From Puniceicoccus vermicola (lineage in GTDB: Bacteria > Verrucomicrobiota > Verrucomicrobiia > Opitutales > Puniceicoccaceae): a stretch of 64,000 nucleotides of DNA. Location: positions 124,001 to 188,000 of the forward strand of contig NZ_JACHVA010000126.1 of NCBI RefSeq assembly GCF_014230055.1. Direction: 5' to 3'. Both the position numbers and the translations under genes were made by a program. Shown here piece after piece: positions 47,442 through 56,371 of the stretch. The first letter of the stretch is position 1; each line of letters opens with the position of its first letter. The notes under the pieces are model-generated. The model worked only from the letters and a program-made list of their open reading frames with translations. It made no database searches and was not told where the DNA came from.

Positions 47442-47462
47442 AAATTGGGTATGCTCGTTTTT

Positions 47463-48581
47463 ATGCCACAATCCTTGGAAAAGAAAAGCACCCGAGTGAC
47501 GATGAGTCAGATCGCCGACCTCGCGGGGGTGTCGAAGACGTCGGTGTCCTTTGTCTTGAATCGAAAGGGTGCTGTGGGGGAGGAGGCTACGGCTCGGATA
47601 CTGGCCGCTGCAAAAGAATTGGGATACGCCAAGCCAACGCGAGCGAGTTCTGATCTAGTGAAGCCGGATCCCGGCGGCTCATCGGCGAAGCCTCATTGGA
47701 ACCAAACCATTGCCTTGATCTGGGTGAATACGACGGAAGCTTGGCGTCATTCTCATCTGTCGCATCTGCTAATCCATTCGATTGGTCGGCGCTTCGAGGA
47801 GTTTGAGAGTCGTCTCAAAACGATTTTCTACAACGAGAGCGAGGGAGATGCCTTTCCCGATCTCTCGGAGGTTGGAGCTTTGTTCGTGGCGGGGTCTCCG
47901 AATGCAGGATTTTGGGAGAAGTTACCTGCGGACCTTCCCCGATTGAACCTCCTCTGCAAACCTTTTTCGACCAATTGTAGTTTTCTGGACATCGATTCTT
48001 TGCATACCGGATACGAATTGACCCAGCACCTCTTGGACAAGGGGCACCGGCGAATTGGATTCGTCAGCAATAGTCGAAGTCACCGGATTTTCAATCTGCG
48101 GTACTTGGGGTATTATCGCGCGTTGGATGAATTGGAGATCGCTCCCCTTCCGGATTGGGTCGTGCGCCTCTCGCAGCCATCGGGGCCTGTCCAGGAGACG
48201 ACCCGTCCTGCGCGCGACATTGAGCCTGGCGTGGAAAGGATGTTGGCGTTGCCGCCGGAAGATAGGCCCACCGCCATTGTCGCGGCCAATGATTGGAACG
48301 CCGCGGCGGTCTATCAATTTGCGAATCGGATTGGTTTACGCATTCCCGAGGATCTCAGTGTGGTGGGGTGCGACAATGATCCGGGTATCTGCGACTTCCT
48401 TATTCCTCCGTTGACCACTTTCGCGATTCCTTACACGGAAATGGCTCACGATGCTGTCGATTGGATGTGCTCTCTCATGAAGGGGCAGCCCCTTCATTCG
48501 CAGCCGGGGCTGATGCAATTCCGCGGCAAGCTCATTGAAAGATCGTCCGTCCGGAGGATGGATGGGGAGGATAAGGATTGA
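47463..48581 (+). CDS. LacI-family transcriptional regulator
   Basis: The 372-residue protein has the LacI headpiece TMSQIADLAGVSKTSVSFVL followed by the hinge-type AAAKELGYAKP, and the periplasmic-binding-protein core (HRRIGFVSNS, PTAIVAANDWNAAAVYQFAN, DLSVVGCDNDP). It probably represses the divergent minus-strand polysaccharide run (47291 down to about 34.9 kb), releasing it on a sugar ligand. The ATG at 47463 is preferred to an upstream TTG at 47445. Operator-like repeats lie in the 170-bp gap. Confidence 0.88.
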   Translation: MPQSLEKKSTRVTMSQIADLAGVSKTSVSFVLNRKGAVGEEATARILAAAKELGYAKPTRASSDLVKPDPGGSSAKPHWNQTIALIWVNTTEAWRHSHLSHLLIHSIGRRFEEFESRLKTIFYNESEGDAFPDLSEVGALFVAGSPNAGFWEKLPADLPRLNLLCKPFSTNCSFLDIDSLHTGYELTQHLLDKGHRRIGFVSNSRSHRIFNLRYLGYYRALDELEIAPLPDWVVRLSQPSGPVQETTRPARDIEPGVERMLALPPEDRPTAIVAANDWNAAAVYQFANRIGLRIPEDLSVVGCDNDPGICDFLIPPLTTFAIPYTEMAHDAVDWMCSLMKGQPLHSQPGLMQFRGKLIERSSVRRMDGEDKD

Positions 48582-48650: not shown

Positions 48651-49595
48651 TCAGTTTTCTACGTAAATGGTAATTTCCTCTGTGCCCGAAGGGAGTATCA
48701 TCTCTTCGAAGCCTTTCTCGGGTTTTCGGGCGATGGCGGAGGCCGAAAAGGCCTTGAGGTATACCGAGTAGCGGATCGATTGATCCTCGGTTTTCGGGTG
48801 AGGATAACGGAAATAGAGTTTGTTGTCTCGCTTTCGGTTGAAAATGAAGAGGCGGGCGTCGGGATAGGTTTCTTGGTGGTAAAGATAGATTCCTACCGAA
48901 TGGGTCGGATCGAACGCGAGGAGTCCGGTAACGTTTTTCTTCAGTGTCATGGATTTGTCCTCTACGAAACCGCCCGACTCTACGAAGGAATCCTCGTAGA
49001 ATGCATAATACAAATCGGTGGATTTCGGGAGCATGTGCATGAAGGGATAAACGAATACGATCTTTGCCAAGTCTCCGCTTCCACCGACTTCGGTGACTCG
49101 TTGTTCAATTCCCCCGGCGGAAATGATTGTGGTGGAGTCTATCGAAAGGAGGTGGCCGCTGTATTCCGACACGAAGTTGCTTTTCTTGTTCACGAGCACG
49201 CGATTCCCTTCCTCGAGGGAAAGCCCCGGCTCGAGGGGCGGCTCTTCGAGGAGTTGATCGTCTTGGAACACGCGAACGGTAAACTCCTGAATTTCCTCGG
49301 GCCTGTGTCCGGAACCGAGGAACGGATCTCCTTCCTTCCCGTGTCTTTCCTTCAACACGGTTCCGAGATAATAACCGCCGGAGCTATCGTTGATGCATCG
49401 GTCTTGATAGTAGACCGACCTCATCGTCCAGGATGCGGTTCGGTCAAATGAGGTCCGATAGTCGCCGACGCTGATTGTCAGCGTCTCTCCATCCTTACTC
49501 GAGACTCGTGCCAAGGCGTTCTCACTGGCGCTCAATGATAGGGTTGGAACGACTAAGGCAGCAAAGGGAATCCAGAGAGTTTTCAGGAAAGACAT
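48651..49595 (-). CDS. Secreted protein of unknown function
   Basis: The 314-residue protein begins with a signal peptide (LKTLWIPFAALVVPTLSLSA). It is beta-rich with aromatic motifs (FVYPFMHMLPKSTDLYYAFY, GIYLYHQETYPDARLFIF). I do not recognise the family; it could be a lyase accessory or a sugar-binding protein. It lies five bases after the stop of the broken beta-helix gene, so it is probably the last gene of that set. No cysteine pairs, repeats or sorting signal are seen. Confidence 0.7.
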   Translation of the reverse strand: MSFLKTLWIPFAALVVPTLSLSASENALARVSSKDGETLTISVGDYRTSFDRTASWTMRSVYYQDRCINDSSGGYYLGTVLKERHGKEGDPFLGSGHRPEEIQEFTVRVFQDDQLLEEPPLEPGLSLEEGNRVLVNKKSNFVSEYSGHLLSIDSTTIISAGGIEQRVTEVGGSGDLAKIVFVYPFMHMLPKSTDLYYAFYEDSFVESGGFVEDKSMTLKKNVTGLLAFDPTHSVGIYLYHQETYPDARLFIFNRKRDNKLYFRYPHPKTEDQSIRYSVYLKAFSASAIARKPEKGFEEMILPSGTEEITIYVEN

Positions 49596-49600
49596 GGAGG

Positions 49601-51418
49601 TCAGTTGTCGGAGGTTTTCGATTCTGCGGCTTCCGAGGAAGAAATGATCTTGGATTTGAGATTTTTCGCGCAGAAGGGACCGGGATCTTTGAATTCGTTC
49701 CGGGACAATTGGGCATTTGGGCAGTTCAGCAAAACGATCGAAGCATCCATATATAGGTCGTCGGAATGGGTATTTTGTCTGTCTTGTCGAACTTGGTTGC
49801 TGCCCACGATCGTGTTGTTTCGGATGACGAGATCGGTGACGTTGGTGAGAAGCATTGCGGCCAACGGAGGGTATTCGATGAGATTGTCTTCGATCAGAAT
49901 CTCTTGGTGGATCGACCGAGGCATTTCACTGAAAGGTTCTGCGGTGACTTTAATGGGAGCCTTGGCACCGCGCCCTTTCTGCCCTCCGAGGAAATGGTTC
50001 CCGGCGATGCGAAGGTTTTGAATCGGCACCCCGAGAGTCCAGTCGGATTCAATCGAAAGTTCCAGCCCTCCCGTGTAGTCGAAGGTTTTGTCAAGGATGA
50101 GCCCGTCTTGGCCGGAGGCTCGCATTGCGTGCGCCCAGCCGTTCCGGAAGTAGCATCCTTGGATGCGGTATCCCTTGCCCCCGTAGCGGTCCGAAAACAC
50201 GTTTGATCCTGCCTTTACCGGTCCCAGGTCCTCGTCGAGAAGAATTCGCCATGGAGTGATTCCTTTCTTCTTGCCCATCCAGCTGACGGGATGAAACTCG
50301 GGAATCGCATATCCGTTTGGATTTTGAACCGGGGTCACTTCGAGAACTCGGGAGGATCCTAGAAACGCAAAGTCGTCGAGACCATAGACGGAGACGGTCG
50401 CTCCCGGTTCGATGCTGAGAGGGATCGTCGCGTTTCTTGTCGTGACGATCAGTTCGTTTCCTCGAGGTTGCTCGAGGGCGATGGCGTTGAAAGCCGTGAT
50501 CGCGACCGAGTCATCCATTGCCGCTTCGATCTCGCAATCGATCAGCTCCGGACCCACGCGGCAATACCGAAGCATCATCCCATCCATGTTGCTCGAAATC
50601 AGTCGCCGAGTGTTCGGACGTCGCATCAATCGGTAGCGGAGGAGAGTCACTTTTTCCGACACTCTGCGGATGTAGAATCCCTGTTTTCCGCTCGCGTATA
50701 CGGTGACATCTTCGATTCGGGTTCTCCCAGTGTCTCTCAACTCAAGGGGGGCGAGCCCTCCGTAGCGAGGAGTTACGACGATTAAGTCTCCGACCCTGAT
50801 TCCGTATCCGGGCAGGTGGCGCGCATTCGTCGGTACGATCAGGTTGACGGTGGCGACGCGGCTGGCCGGATCGAATTTCCGAACCTGATTTGCTTTTTTC
50901 GGATGGCTCCTGCCATCGTCGGCACCCGCAATCCACAGCGGACTCAAGGGAAGCCCTTTGGAGTCGTCGTTGTTGAAAACATGTATCCGTCCCAGACCCT
51001 CGATCGGATTCGAAGAATACCTCTCCCAAGCCTCGTCAAATCCGGGGGAGAGTTCGAAGCTGACCGATGCATTCGAGCCGGTTTGAACTTCGGTCACTTT
51101 TCCCTGAACATAGGGAAGAGGATCGTAGTCGACCGTGAAGTTTTTGAGGGTAAGGTCACGGCAATCGGAAACCCGAAAAAGAACGATTTCCGGATCGGTG
51201 ATCCAAAAGGTGGATCCGTTCCCGTTTATTTCGATTCCTTCCAAGTCGTCGAGCAGGAAAAGAGCGTTCTCATCGGGGGTAGAAGACACCATCGCGGAAT
51301 CGACTCGATAGTCGCCGTAGGGAATGTGGATTTCAGTCTTCCCGGCCTCCAAGTCCCGCCGAAGCGTCTGAATCAGATCCCAGGTGTTCTGCTTTTGCGC
51401 CGCCTTATCCTCTTCGCT
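49601..51418 (-). pseudogene. Right-handed beta-helix protein, C-terminal part of a stop-interrupted gene
   Basis: The frame runs without a plausible start from just after the TAG at 51419-51421 to a stop at 49601, 605 codons. It begins with a beta-helix opening (WDLIQTLRRDLEAGKTEIHI, IPYGDYRVDSAM) and carries typical coils (EGIEINGNGSTFW, TRIEDVTVYASGKQGFYIR, NMDGMMLRYCRVG, DDSVAITAFNA). Such proteins act as polysaccharide lyases or glycosidases. The only candidate start, a TTG at 51352, would leave a secreted-type enzyme without a signal peptide, so the fragment most likely belongs to the same gene as 51419-51892. Readthrough or a real null allele cannot be told apart here. Confidence 0.78.
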
Positions 51419-51892
51419 CTAAGAGGCTATCTCAGGGGGATAGGCGTGATTGGAATCCTCTGGAGAAATGAACTGAATGGAACGTCCTTTATGCCGCCAG
51501 TGAATCGTTCCCAGATCTTTTCGTGCCCGCCCGTCGGAAACGGCTAAGCGGTAGAAACCATAGGAGGTCTCGTGATTTCCGCGCAGATGAAACTGGAGTC
51601 CCCCGGGGCGGGGCGGCTCCTCGGGATCGCGGATCACCGAGATGGTTTCGTCGCTGCCGATCTTTCGCGCGGAGACGACGAGGGCGTCGTTTTGTGAGGC
51701 TGGTTCGATCTCCCCTTGCAGCCGAAAGGATGCAGTGCCAATTCCTTCCTGCTGGTATTCGCTGACGGTAAGTTCGGAAAGGCGGTCTGGAAGAGCAGGG
51801 GGAGATGCCTCTTCTCTTGCCTGGATCACCGATCCGGTCGGCGAGAATGTGAGAAGAACGGCGGCGATGAAAAGAGGTGTCCTCGGGATCAT
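51419..51892 (-). pseudogene. N-terminal fragment of the stop-interrupted beta-helix gene
   Basis: This 157-codon piece has the signal peptide (PLFIAAVLLTFSPTGSV) and a beta-sandwich N-domain (SELTVSEYQQEGIGTASFRL, SYGFYRLAVSDGRARKDLG). It ends at TAG (51419-51421) in the same frame as the downstream beta-helix fragment, with 22 codons of continuous helix-like sequence between. On its own the fragment would be a small secreted protein. Confidence 0.72.
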
Positions 51893-52001
51893 TGAATCAA
51901 TTCTCCTGGTTTTAGCGAGTTTCGCTGTGCAGACGACACAGTCGGATTGAGGCACCGCAGTTGACCTGCGAGGTTCCTTCTTTGGGGATGGTGCGGTTTT
52001 G

Positions 52002-52754
52002 CTATCGGCGACGACGTAGTACGGAAGAGGCAACGATCACAATCCCCATCAGAAGCCCGGAGGTAGAGGGTTCGGGGATCGGGTTCACGTCGTAGCTGAT
52101 TCGAGGATACTGAGTGTCCAGTTCTGTGTCGTCGGAGCGCCAGAAACGGATGCCGGGATCTCCGGTTGATCCGTTCGAAGTGATGATCAGCGTTACGATT
52201 CCATCCGTGTCATTGGCGTATGAGTCATTGAGGAATGTATCCAAAACTTCGCCGCTGATCGAGAATGGTTGATCGCCAGTGACCGTGCTCGAATCGATCG
52301 TGAAGCTGCCCAGGTCAACCGTTCCGGAAGAAATCACGCCAGTGCGGCTGCCGGTGTCGTTTTTTGGGGCGTTGTTCCAAGTGACCGTGCTCTCAGACCA
52401 ATCATCATCGTTGTCTGTAATTCCGTAAACACTGAAGTCGATGTTCCCCGTTGCACCTCCCAGGAGGACGTCAGAGTTGTTTCCTGCGATTGTCGTGAGT
52501 CCGAAGCTCGTATTGGCAAACTCCTCACCGCTTCCCAGGAGTCCGTTGAGGTTGAATTTTAAATAGATTTTTCGGTCGTTATTGGCTCCTCTTGCGGCGA
52601 TTTGCAACTGGTTGATGGAATCGTAGTTTATATCAGCATTGTCGCCACTTTTGACGAAGCTCCCCTGCGAGCTGGAAATCGTATCGGCGTAAGTCGGAGA
52701 GAGGAGTAAGGAGAGACCGAGACAGAAATAGGAGGGGGCAGTGATGTGTTTCAT
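52002..52754 (-). CDS. DNRLRE-domain PEP-CTERM protein
   Basis: The 250-residue protein has a signal peptide (APSYFCLGLSLLLSPTYA), a DNRLRE-like (CBM96-type) beta domain with KIYLKFNLNGLLGSG, WSESTVTWNNAPKN and FWRSDDTELDTQYPRISYDV, and the sorting signal IPEPSTSGLLMGIV followed by RRRR. DNRLRE domains bind polysaccharides such as alginate in some marine bacteria. A LacI-type operator TTACACGTAA lies 100 bp upstream. The gene precedes the broken beta-helix gene, and the LacI gene at 53093 lies upstream on the same strand. Confidence 0.88.
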   Translation of the reverse strand: MKHITAPSYFCLGLSLLLSPTYADTISSSQGSFVKSGDNADINYDSINQLQIAARGANNDRKIYLKFNLNGLLGSGEEFANTSFGLTTIAGNNSDVLLGGATGNIDFSVYGITDNDDDWSESTVTWNNAPKNDTGSRTGVISSGTVDLGSFTIDSSTVTGDQPFSISGEVLDTFLNDSYANDTDGIVTLIITSNGSTGDPGIRFWRSDDTELDTQYPRISYDVNPIPEPSTSGLLMGIVIVASSVLRRRR

Positions 52755-53092: not shown

Positions 53093-54121
53093 TCAGCCGG
53101 GACTTTGGATCGTTTGCCCGTCCACCCATTTCCCTTTGGTATGGAGTGCATAGGGCAAGCGTGGCAGTCCGTATTCGTTTAAGCACAACTTATCGAGGAG
53201 CAATTGGACTGCGGTTTCGGAACGGGATTCGAAGTCTTGGTCGATGCCGCTGTAGTTCTCTTCGAGAAAGCCGCAATCCAAGTGAATGATGGAGAGATCG
53301 CGAGGCACCGAGTAACCCAGCTCGGACAGCAGGGATATCGTCTCTTTGTGGCAGGTGATGAGGCAGTCAAATTCGTTCTTTCGTAGCCACTTCTCGAGTG
53401 CCGTTTTCTCGAGATAGGGGTGGTCGAAGATTCGCCGTTTTACGAAGGTGAGATTCTTGCGAAAGCTGTTCCCGAGAAAACTGTCGAGCCAGCGATTTCT
53501 CGTGTTGATATGGCCTTTTTGGGAAACGAGCAGGCCCGGCGATCGAAAGCCGTGTTCCCACAGTTTGCTGAAGGCGAGCTCCATTCCGGAGAAATTGTCG
53601 TGGACAACCTTCGATACGGGGATCGATGAGAAGGACTCGGAGAGGGAGACCGGAACGAATTTCTCCCAGGACAGATCTAAATGCCCGAAGCGAAAAGGGC
53701 CGAGAATGAGGCCACAGACCCCTCGATTCCAGAGTACTTTCGAGATGAACGGCCCTTGATCCGGTTCGATTTCATGCAACTCGACATTGCAACCGACCCG
53801 ATGGCAATGGTCGGAGATGACTGAGAGCATTTGATCTTTCAACTGCTTCGAGCGCGGTCCGAGAACCTGGTCTTTGCGGGCAATGAAGGCAAAGGTCGGA
53901 TTATCTTTGATCGTTTTCCGGCTCCGGACGCTTTTCATGAGCGTCGAAACGTAGGGATTGACGCGGTATCCAAGCTCTTCGGCCGCCGCGAAAACCTTCT
54001 TTTTGCTCTTTTCCGAAACTCTCTTGTCGTTTCGCAGGGCGAGGGAAACGGTCATGGCTGAGACCCCTGCTTTGGCGGCTACATCACGGGTCGTGATTCC
54101 GACTATTTTCCCCATAGCCAT
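53093..54121 (-). CDS. LacI-family transcriptional regulator
   Basis: The 342-residue regulator has a LacI headpiece (TTRDVAAKAGVSAMTVSLAL, then KKKVFAAAEELGYRVNPYVS) and a binding-protein core with RNRWLDSFLG, CLITCHKETISLLSELG and DLSIIHLDCGF. It lies about 340 bp upstream of the DNRLRE PEP-CTERM and beta-helix genes on the same strand, and about 100 bp after the GH16 gene. ATG 54121 is preferred; ATG 54115 is also possible. It may regulate the 52.7-48.6 kb set through the TTACACGTAA site. Confidence 0.88.
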   Translation of the reverse strand: MAMGKIVGITTRDVAAKAGVSAMTVSLALRNDKRVSEKSKKKVFAAAEELGYRVNPYVSTLMKSVRSRKTIKDNPTFAFIARKDQVLGPRSKQLKDQMLSVISDHCHRVGCNVELHEIEPDQGPFISKVLWNRGVCGLILGPFRFGHLDLSWEKFVPVSLSESFSSIPVSKVVHDNFSGMELAFSKLWEHGFRSPGLLVSQKGHINTRNRWLDSFLGNSFRKNLTFVKRRIFDHPYLEKTALEKWLRKNEFDCLITCHKETISLLSELGYSVPRDLSIIHLDCGFLEENYSGIDQDFESRSETAVQLLLDKLCLNEYGLPRLPYALHTKGKWVDGQTIQSPG

Positions 54122-54220
54122 TAGATTTGACGCCTTTTCAGGGAGACGCAACCGCTATTGGTAGCTCTGCGGAATCGATTCATTTGAGCCGGTGGGGAGC
54201 GCGACAGTCTGGCCTGCGGT

Positions 54221-56371
54221 TCAATTTTTCGGGAAAAGCTGGTTCGCTTGGTTCAGAAGATGTCTCTCCAGCGGGACGTTGGTGCGGTTCTCGTCTCTCA
54301 AGATGAGGATGATGCCGGTTTTCCGGTCGTCGATTACGGAGATTCCGAAAATCCTCCCGGCTTCCGAGGCGGCGAGATAACGGATGTCCTCGATTTGATG
54401 AGTGGGAAAGGTGGCGTCGGGCGTGGGGGCTTTGACACCCGAAGAATGATCAGGTGCAAGCGTGCCGTTTGCGAAGTCGGGAAGGGTCCTCAGAGCCCAT
54501 TCGGCGGGGAGATAGATCTCCCCATCTTCATTGCGTACGGGGGTAATCGCAGGGTCGGACGGATCCATTCGCTGTCCATCCAGGTTGTCGAAAACGAAGT
54601 TGTGACCGACCTTGAGAATGAGTCCTTCGTCAAAGGGAGAGGGCGTTGCAGGAATAAAGCGAACGACATCGGCCCGAATGAATCCCTCGTGCGAATATTC
54701 GGCCGGGTAGCTCAACTCTACGGAATTCGCGTCTCCCTTCTTCAAAGAATGGATGCCGAGGTCTATCCATTCCGGTTCGTTTCCTTTGTGCCCGATAGAC
54801 TTCTCGGTTAGGCCGTCGGCACTGAATATCCGCAACGTCGCTTCGGGCACATTGTTGTCGTAACGAACGTTGTAGAATTCGATGCGGTATTGGCCGCTTT
54901 GAGGAATTTCCGGTGTCCACCGAACCCAGCTTTCCGGTTCTTTGGAATAACGGTGGGCCCCGACTTTTCCTCGGATGGTGCTCTTTCTCCAGTTGTCCGA
55001 GTTGTCGAAGGACGCCTGTTGGTCATCCAGGAGGATTTCTCCGAGAAACTTGGGGGAGGAGGGTGCGACATGTTCGACTTCGGCCTTCTCCCCCTTCCTC
55101 GCGAAGACGATGTCGTCCACTTCGAGCCAGTGCGCGGGTTCCGAGGAAGTGGAGATCGTGATCGAGCATTTGTTTTCCGTAACTTCGATGGGGGCGAGCG
55201 TGACCTTCTTCCATTGTCGCCCCTGTGTCTTGGGGATGGTTTCCCGTTTCGGTTCTCCGCCAAACCCTTCGGCTCGTATCTCGGCAAGTTCCTGACCGCC
55301 GGAGCTTCGTACTCGCGCAGTGAGCTCGTAGGTGCCGTTCGGGATGTGGGTGAGGTCTTGTCGAATTGCGCCGCGATAGGTTTTCTCGTATGCGAAACGC
55401 AGGTACGTCATCCCTTCGAACGATTCTCGACTTTCGACCAACGTGCCCGCCCCAATGTCGCCTTCTTGGATCCAGGCGACGGGATGGTGAAGATCGCGAG
55501 GGTTCTTGGAGGCAGCGTTGTTTCGATTGTCGTATTCGAAGCTGCCATTTCCGAGTAAATTGACGCCGGGAAGCGGTTTGGCGTAGAAGCGAAAGTAGTC
55601 CCAAGAGCTTTCGCCGGGGAGCGTCTCATCCTCGACGGGACTTCCGTCTCCAAAGCCGTTCGGCGTTCCCAACGCTGTCACCCAGACGTTTTGAGGTCCG
55701 TAGAACGAAGGGTGCTTCAAGGTCCGGATGAGGGTCCCGTTTAGATACCAGTTGATTCGGTCTGGAAGCCACTCGTATCCGAAAATAAAATCTTCTTCGG
55801 AGGTATTGACCGTAGCATCGTCTACGAGTCCTTCGAGCCGACCCGTGGCGACGTGTTCACCGATATAGTAGTGGATATTCGTGTGAATCTCGGCGGGGAA
55901 TTCCGAATCGACCTCGTAGCCGTCGATTTCGATAATACGGTTGTATCTCGGGAGACTAGGCTGATTCTTCTGGTTCATTCCCAAGCTCCAGAAAGACGAG
56001 TGGAGACCGGGGCCGCCTCCCCAGAGCTTGGCCTTGGCTTCGTAGTATCCGTATCCGAAAAGAGCTTTGGAGATAATGCCCCCCGACGTGTAGCGTTGTT
56101 CGCCGTCGACCATGTCTTTGGTGAACTCGATGACCAAGCGGCCATCCGAGAGTGAGACGTTGTCCGCCAGATTCACGCTATCGATTTTTTGTCGGGACCC
56201 GGTGCGGTAGTTCCAGTTTTCCCGGTTGAGGGTAGGCTCCTCGAAGTCCTCCTCGAATAACAGTTGGTAGGATTTGTCGAGACGGCTCAGGTCCGTATCT
56301 CCAGTGGCGAAATTCATGAGTCCAAGCAAAGATAGGAAGAGGAGACCGGTGGTTCGTGGAAAATGGATCAT
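54221..56371 (-). CDS. Secreted GH16 glycanase with CBM-like, golvesin-like and copper-amine-oxidase-like domains
   Basis: The 716-residue enzyme begins with a signal peptide (TTGLLFLSLLGLMNFATG). The GH16 domain (about 35-285) has the catalytic E148-I-D150-G-Y-E153 with nucleophile and acid/base Glu, and KAKLWGGGPGLHSSFWSLG for the substrate cleft. A jelly-roll module (about 290-420) and a golvesin-C-like module (about 440-570) follow, and the C-terminus (about 590-700) resembles the small copper-amine-oxidase N-terminal-like domain used for wall binding. The target may be laminarin, agar, carrageenan or porphyran type; it cannot be fixed from sequence. The pseudopilin gene is 94 bp upstream on the same strand. 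Confidence 0.88.
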   Translation of the reverse strand: MIHFPRTTGLLFLSLLGLMNFATGDTDLSRLDKSYQLLFEEDFEEPTLNRENWNYRTGSRQKIDSVNLADNVSLSDGRLVIEFTKDMVDGEQRYTSGGIISKALFGYGYYEAKAKLWGGGPGLHSSFWSLGMNQKNQPSLPRYNRIIEIDGYEVDSEFPAEIHTNIHYYIGEHVATGRLEGLVDDATVNTSEEDFIFGYEWLPDRINWYLNGTLIRTLKHPSFYGPQNVWVTALGTPNGFGDGSPVEDETLPGESSWDYFRFYAKPLPGVNLLGNGSFEYDNRNNAASKNPRDLHHPVAWIQEGDIGAGTLVESRESFEGMTYLRFAYEKTYRGAIRQDLTHIPNGTYELTARVRSSGGQELAEIRAEGFGGEPKRETIPKTQGRQWKKVTLAPIEVTENKCSITISTSSEPAHWLEVDDIVFARKGEKAEVEHVAPSSPKFLGEILLDDQQASFDNSDNWRKSTIRGKVGAHRYSKEPESWVRWTPEIPQSGQYRIEFYNVRYDNNVPEATLRIFSADGLTEKSIGHKGNEPEWIDLGIHSLKKGDANSVELSYPAEYSHEGFIRADVVRFIPATPSPFDEGLILKVGHNFVFDNLDGQRMDPSDPAITPVRNEDGEIYLPAEWALRTLPDFANGTLAPDHSSGVKAPTPDATFPTHQIEDIRYLAASEAGRIFGISVIDDRKTGIILILRDENRTNVPLERHLLNQANQLFPKN

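Follow-up and report, generated by a model that had tools for sequence, protein, structure and literature searches.

The closest described proteins to the product of the gene analysed here are the GH110 enzymes PdGH110B (PDB 7jw4/7jwf) and Alpha-1,3-galactosidase B (8pvs). According to the accessible part of the report on PdGH110B (PMC7939477), Asp-344 is the likely catalytic acid of that enzyme, and Asp-321 and/or Asp-345 activate water. The gene lies in the window, by which we mean the whole stretch of 64,000 nucleotides of Puniceicoccus vermicola DNA that was analysed, and its product resembles both enzymes in the sequence of the beta-helix and in a D-(23)-DD spacing. It differs from them in being distant, in carrying an extra N-terminal stretch and in being interrupted by a TAG codon.

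The part of Belinky et al. 2021 (PMC7918605) available to us reports that stop codons within the frame are widespread in bacterial genes, and the finding is for this reason an ordinary one. The cases in that part of the study resemble the present one, a bacterial gene that is intact except for a single in-frame stop. Its focus there, however, is on stops found in orthologues of at least two species, whereas the stop described below was found in one genome only.

An interrupted gene for a GH110-like protein

We reread the minus strand of the window from 51892 to 49601. The frame contains a single in-frame TAG and is otherwise open, giving 763 residues with X at the stop, which confirms the original prediction that the two fragments share one frame with only the TAG between them. 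The gene (49601-51892) consists of 157 codons, the TAG at 51421-51419 (residue 158 of 763) and a further 605 codons up to a TGA at 49603-49601; a second stop is absent from its 762 sense codons. A probable ribosome-binding site, AGGAG (51903-51907, same strand), ends 10 bases upstream of the ATG. At the local base composition, 605 open codons would arise by chance with a probability of about 1e-11. Codon usage downstream of the TAG looks coding: the first 80 codons scored 0.21 bits per codon and all 605 together 0.11, compared with 0.09 for the 80 codons before the TAG and 0.13 for the median gene of the contig. The scoring model had itself been trained on long frames from these contigs.

The part after the stop (49601-51418, minus strand; 605 residues) narrowly passed the gathering cut-off of the Pfam family Beta_helix (PF13229; 26.1 bits versus 25.9). 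A phmmer search with this part alone matched 7jw4 with an E-value of 9.8e-8, the best stretch being residues 10-100. A ten-row profile of the window protein and its relatives (alignment A2) matched five GH110 sequences with E-values from 5.4e-43 to 3.9e-40, the best of them 8pvs (5.4e-43), 9beh (3.7e-42) and 7jw4 (1.9e-41). Judged by these matches, the beta-helix part is related to GH110 alpha-1,3-galactosidases. All rows of A2 share three aspartates in the D-(23)-DD spacing, namely D280, D303 and D304 (alignment numbering that counts the TAG as residue 1), and in the alignment of the profile to 8pvs the D and the DD fall on D and DD. By spacing and by this alignment, the catalytic triad D321, D344 and D345 of PdGH110B, as given in the accessible part of PMC7939477, has counterparts in the window protein, and the predicted catalytic Asp pattern survives after the stop. 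The product of the gene is probably a secreted GH110-like sugar-cutting enzyme, its activity being predicted.

We compared the window protein with the other members of A2 at conserved sites. Of the 57 columns that are near-invariant among the other nine members, it matches 39, which ranks it last of the ten rows. It deviates at 4 of 21 columns at which nine of the ten rows agree, a count made on alignment columns and not on the published residues of the conserved -1 subsite around the triad. Compared with the near-invariant residues of the sampled relatives, A is replaced by M before the first Asp, and after the DD there is a T where the other nine rows have H. However, a paralogue in the same genome whose frame is open is close behind (39 of 55 near-invariant columns matched), and the departures are thus no clear mark of decay.

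The N-terminal fragment (51422-51892, minus strand; 157 residues) opens with a stretch, residues 1 to about 25, that is signal-peptide-like as judged by eye. Between it and the motif described below lies an extra stretch of about 120 residues (about residues 26-145; 51458-51817, minus strand). The original description of this piece as a signal-peptide fragment thus holds for its start and passes over these 120 or so probably beta-rich residues. The motif-bearing relatives that we inspected do not have the extra stretch. It gave no match in Pfam or NCBIfam, no relative at an E-value of 0.001 in 285 other genomes of the class, and no second copy at an E-value of 1 in its own genome. A single-sequence AlphaFold model of the N-terminal part was weak (mean pLDDT 58.5), and its Foldseek matches were mostly to generic immunoglobulin-like beta-sandwiches (best 5.9e-3, none at or below 0.001). 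The model suggests that the stretch is beta-rich, perhaps immunoglobulin-like.

A conserved motif across the stop

The read-through protein was matched in 44 of 384 genomes of the class at an E-value of 1e-6 or better (the window's own genome counted), with 22-41% identity over the matched pieces. No close orthologue was found among them, nor in the two congeneric genomes that were searched. The relatives that reach the region carry an N-terminal motif, roughly [YF]P-x-E-x-A-x-W, that crosses the position of the TAG; examples are AYPAEIAAWDSAVKDKQRQ (L044), NQAYPAEIAGWSDKVIQAQRD (L043), NAAYPPQVAAWTEEEIQRQR (L042), ANDAYPPEIAKWTEADLAAQR (L155) and DNYAYPEPIASWSEAVKEGQR (L157). It mostly stands soon after a start that looks signal-peptide-like by eye, with L158 and L170 showing no such start. 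The counterpart in the window (51389-51448, minus strand) reads HAYPPEIAS-stop-SEEDKAAQKQ, with the stop sitting on the Trp. TAG is one step from the sole Trp codon.

When the stop was written as X for pairwise alignment, the Trp of L042, of L043 and of both units of L044 fell on the X and the alignment continued on both sides. The same placement was obtained for these relatives in a MAFFT alignment (A1). We then counted residues at the TAG column with a profile built from A1. Trp was found at 13 of 21 distinct places with at least 5 residues before the column (Y at 3, P at 2, and G, T and V at 1 each), and at 16 of 25 when four shorter rows were included (Y at 3, P at 2, and G, T, V and M at 1 each; 9 of 25 non-Trp). 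The count covers relatives with fetched DNA, six stretches having been chosen since their match reached the region and many listed matches having been left out; L158, L159 and L170 are near-identical in the motif. The profile aligned 114 rows (88 distinct). In 78 of them the column was empty, the 4 short ones (W in 3, M in 1) were first dropped, and the 32 retained comprise 22 distinct rows, including one truncated duplicate. As the four Trp rows of A1 were part of the profile, it leans towards aligning Trp there; minus the four places used in A1, Trp accounts for 9 of 17 places, or 12 of 21 with the shorter rows. The pairwise alignments are free of this bias and give the same register.

The alignments show that both fragments are one gene, not two, because in the relatives one unbroken frame runs through the motif from before the site of the stop to after it, most often with Trp at the site. 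The original prediction had proposed looking for a sense codon in orthologues, and what most covering relatives (distant ones, no close orthologues having been found) have at the site is Trp; two genes with proper starts, the arrangement that it had set against its own reading, are absent from all relatives aligned across the site. In annotation, both fragments are best recorded as one interrupted GH110-like gene, and separate entries for a hypothetical protein and for a beta-helix protein that lacks a start are to be avoided.

L044 (G164:C3:74500-81500) is a tandem pair of GH110-like units in one open frame of 1256 residues, each unit with its own [AP]YPA[ED]IAAW motif.

Readings of the TAG

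The reading that we favour, with rather better than even confidence, is that the gene of a probably secreted GH110-like enzyme carries a recent nonsense allele. On this reading, one gene for a GH110-like beta-helix glycosidase, made up of a signal peptide, the extra N-terminal stretch and the catalytic helix, would have recently gained one nonsense codon where relatives mostly have Trp. Translation from the normal start would halt at the TAG and leave a stub of 157 residues, while the catalytic part would be unmade or, at most, poorly restarted inside the domain with no signal peptide. The sampled strain, or part of the population, would then lack the enzyme. That the base is real, the event recent and the product lost, we infer in all three cases. 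In the relatives, the site of the stop falls in coding sequence, as it would for a nonsense pseudogene.

The frame after the TAG keeps register with the relatives to near its end. Under neutral substitution, about 0.036-0.043 substitutions per site (a range spanning transition bias from 1 to 4) would be enough to bring the probability of no second stop down to 5%. With no second stop and the frame in register, the gene therefore has a young lesion, a lesion that is not real, or a frame that is still in use. A search for other strains, made by protein in genome contigs, gave no relative, and plasmids, searched by megablast only, gave no match to the gene. A degenerate DNA pattern across the stop had one match, in a Thiomicrorhabdus contig; its translation, judged by reading, looks like an unrelated protein.

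It is conceivable, though we consider it rather unlikely, that the TAG stems from an error in the consensus of the draft assembly, or from a minority or mixed-strain base, and that the gene is intact in the organism. The genome is indeed a draft of 143 contigs, and the rest of the gene looks intact in its 762 sense codons, its coding signal and its catalytic spacing. However, the site lies deep inside a contig of 217 kb (position 175421), and the lesion resembles a substitution, not an indel. We also screened two contigs (437 kb) by codon usage for other split genes and obtained 21 candidate in-frame pairs from 362. Seven of the 21 translations were read by eye: the window case, two ordinary neighbouring genes and four apparent antisense shadows; in each of the other 14 candidates, a start is possible within 8 codons. 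The seven include no second convincing in-frame split gene, and the consensus is thus not evidently error-rich, as far as can be told from a crude screen whose first pass, with a stricter whole-frame threshold, missed the window case altogether. A genome-wide excess of TAG-split genes is likewise unsupported by these seven translations.

Programmed or tolerated readthrough of the UAG, which would yield a little full-length enzyme at a level set by the stop, seems improbable to us. The frame past the stop is open and coding, and bacterial in-frame stops with dN/dS below 1, among them a TAG/CAG example, are described in the accessible part of Belinky et al. 2021 (PMC7918605). The evidence says, however, that TAG is an ordinary stop in this genome. 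It terminates 52 of 218 frames picked by codon usage in two contigs (23 of 114 and 29 of 104), and release factor 1 (RF1) is present. None of the 42 tRNA genes found has a CUA anticodon, although, with genome completeness at about 96% and several of the expected tRNAs (for example, Ile) unseen, a CUA tRNA may have been missed. PylS is absent from the genome, the control search having found it in Methanosarcina; together with the lack of a CUA tRNA among those found, the use of TAG and the presence of RF1, this led us to reject pyrrolysine decoding.

Nor does the RNA around the stop look stimulatory. The predicted fold of 116 nt from just before the stop onward was no better than that of shuffled sequences (z 0.66; 156 of 200 shuffles at least as stable). 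The stop itself shows no conservation: no relative among the matches listed, all of them distant, has one inside the gene, the window gene excepted, and two other stop-bearing matches in the scan of the class overrun the C-terminal end of their frames. Support for programmed readthrough is thus limited to the open frame. Nonsense mutation, assembly error and readthrough had all been named in the original prediction, and that choice of readings is borne out; TAG use, RF1, tRNAs, PylS, the fold and the relatives tilt the balance away from readthrough and towards the first two. A variant in which the stop is maintained, the GH110-like gene being held at low output through rare UAG readthrough and the secreted stub being a product in its own right, we judge very improbable.

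We give still less credence to two working proteins, a secreted N-terminal one and a separately started cytoplasmic beta-helix one. The part after the stop had been described as having no ATG; in fact, it has an in-frame TTG at 51352 (codon 23) and an ATG at 51292 (codon 43). In addition, two of the 14 relatives inspected (L158 and L170) have no obvious signal peptide by eye, and L159 has a near-identical motif; going by L158 and L170, cytoplasmic members of the family may exist. But both candidate starts fall within the beta-helix domain, and no start in the first 160 codons after the TAG has a Shine-Dalgarno match of more than 3 bases. Moreover, the conserved motif spans the stop, and the other relatives inspected open with a stretch that looks signal-peptide-like by eye before the domain. 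We rejected two separate genes on the grounds that the motif of the relatives spans the stop and that there is no good restart.

A reassigned TAG that this organism reads as an amino acid, for which the single open frame and nothing more speaks, has a negligible probability as a genome-wide code, given the 52 of 218 frames ended by TAG, RF1, the lack of a suppressor tRNA among those found, and the absence of PylS.

The neighbourhood of the gene

Judging by domain matches, the neighbourhood of the interrupted gene is sugar-related. LacI-type regulators are encoded at 47445-48581 (plus strand) and 53093-54151 (minus strand), and a GH16-domain protein with a golvesin C-terminal domain at 54221-56371 (minus strand). 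If the nonsense allele is real, this neighbourhood may be losing one enzyme, perhaps since its substrate is not always present.

The two genes flanking the interrupted one lie on the same, minus, strand. The next gene (48651-49595), which begins 5 bases past the end of the beta-helix frame, encodes 314 residues with a signal-peptide-like start by eye, and matched nothing in NCBIfam and no Pfam family above its cut-off. Just upstream of the interrupted gene, 52002-52754 encodes a CBM96-domain protein, its start judged by eye, with a C-terminal PEP-CTERM-like motif that scored just below the cut-off (19.7 versus 20.7).
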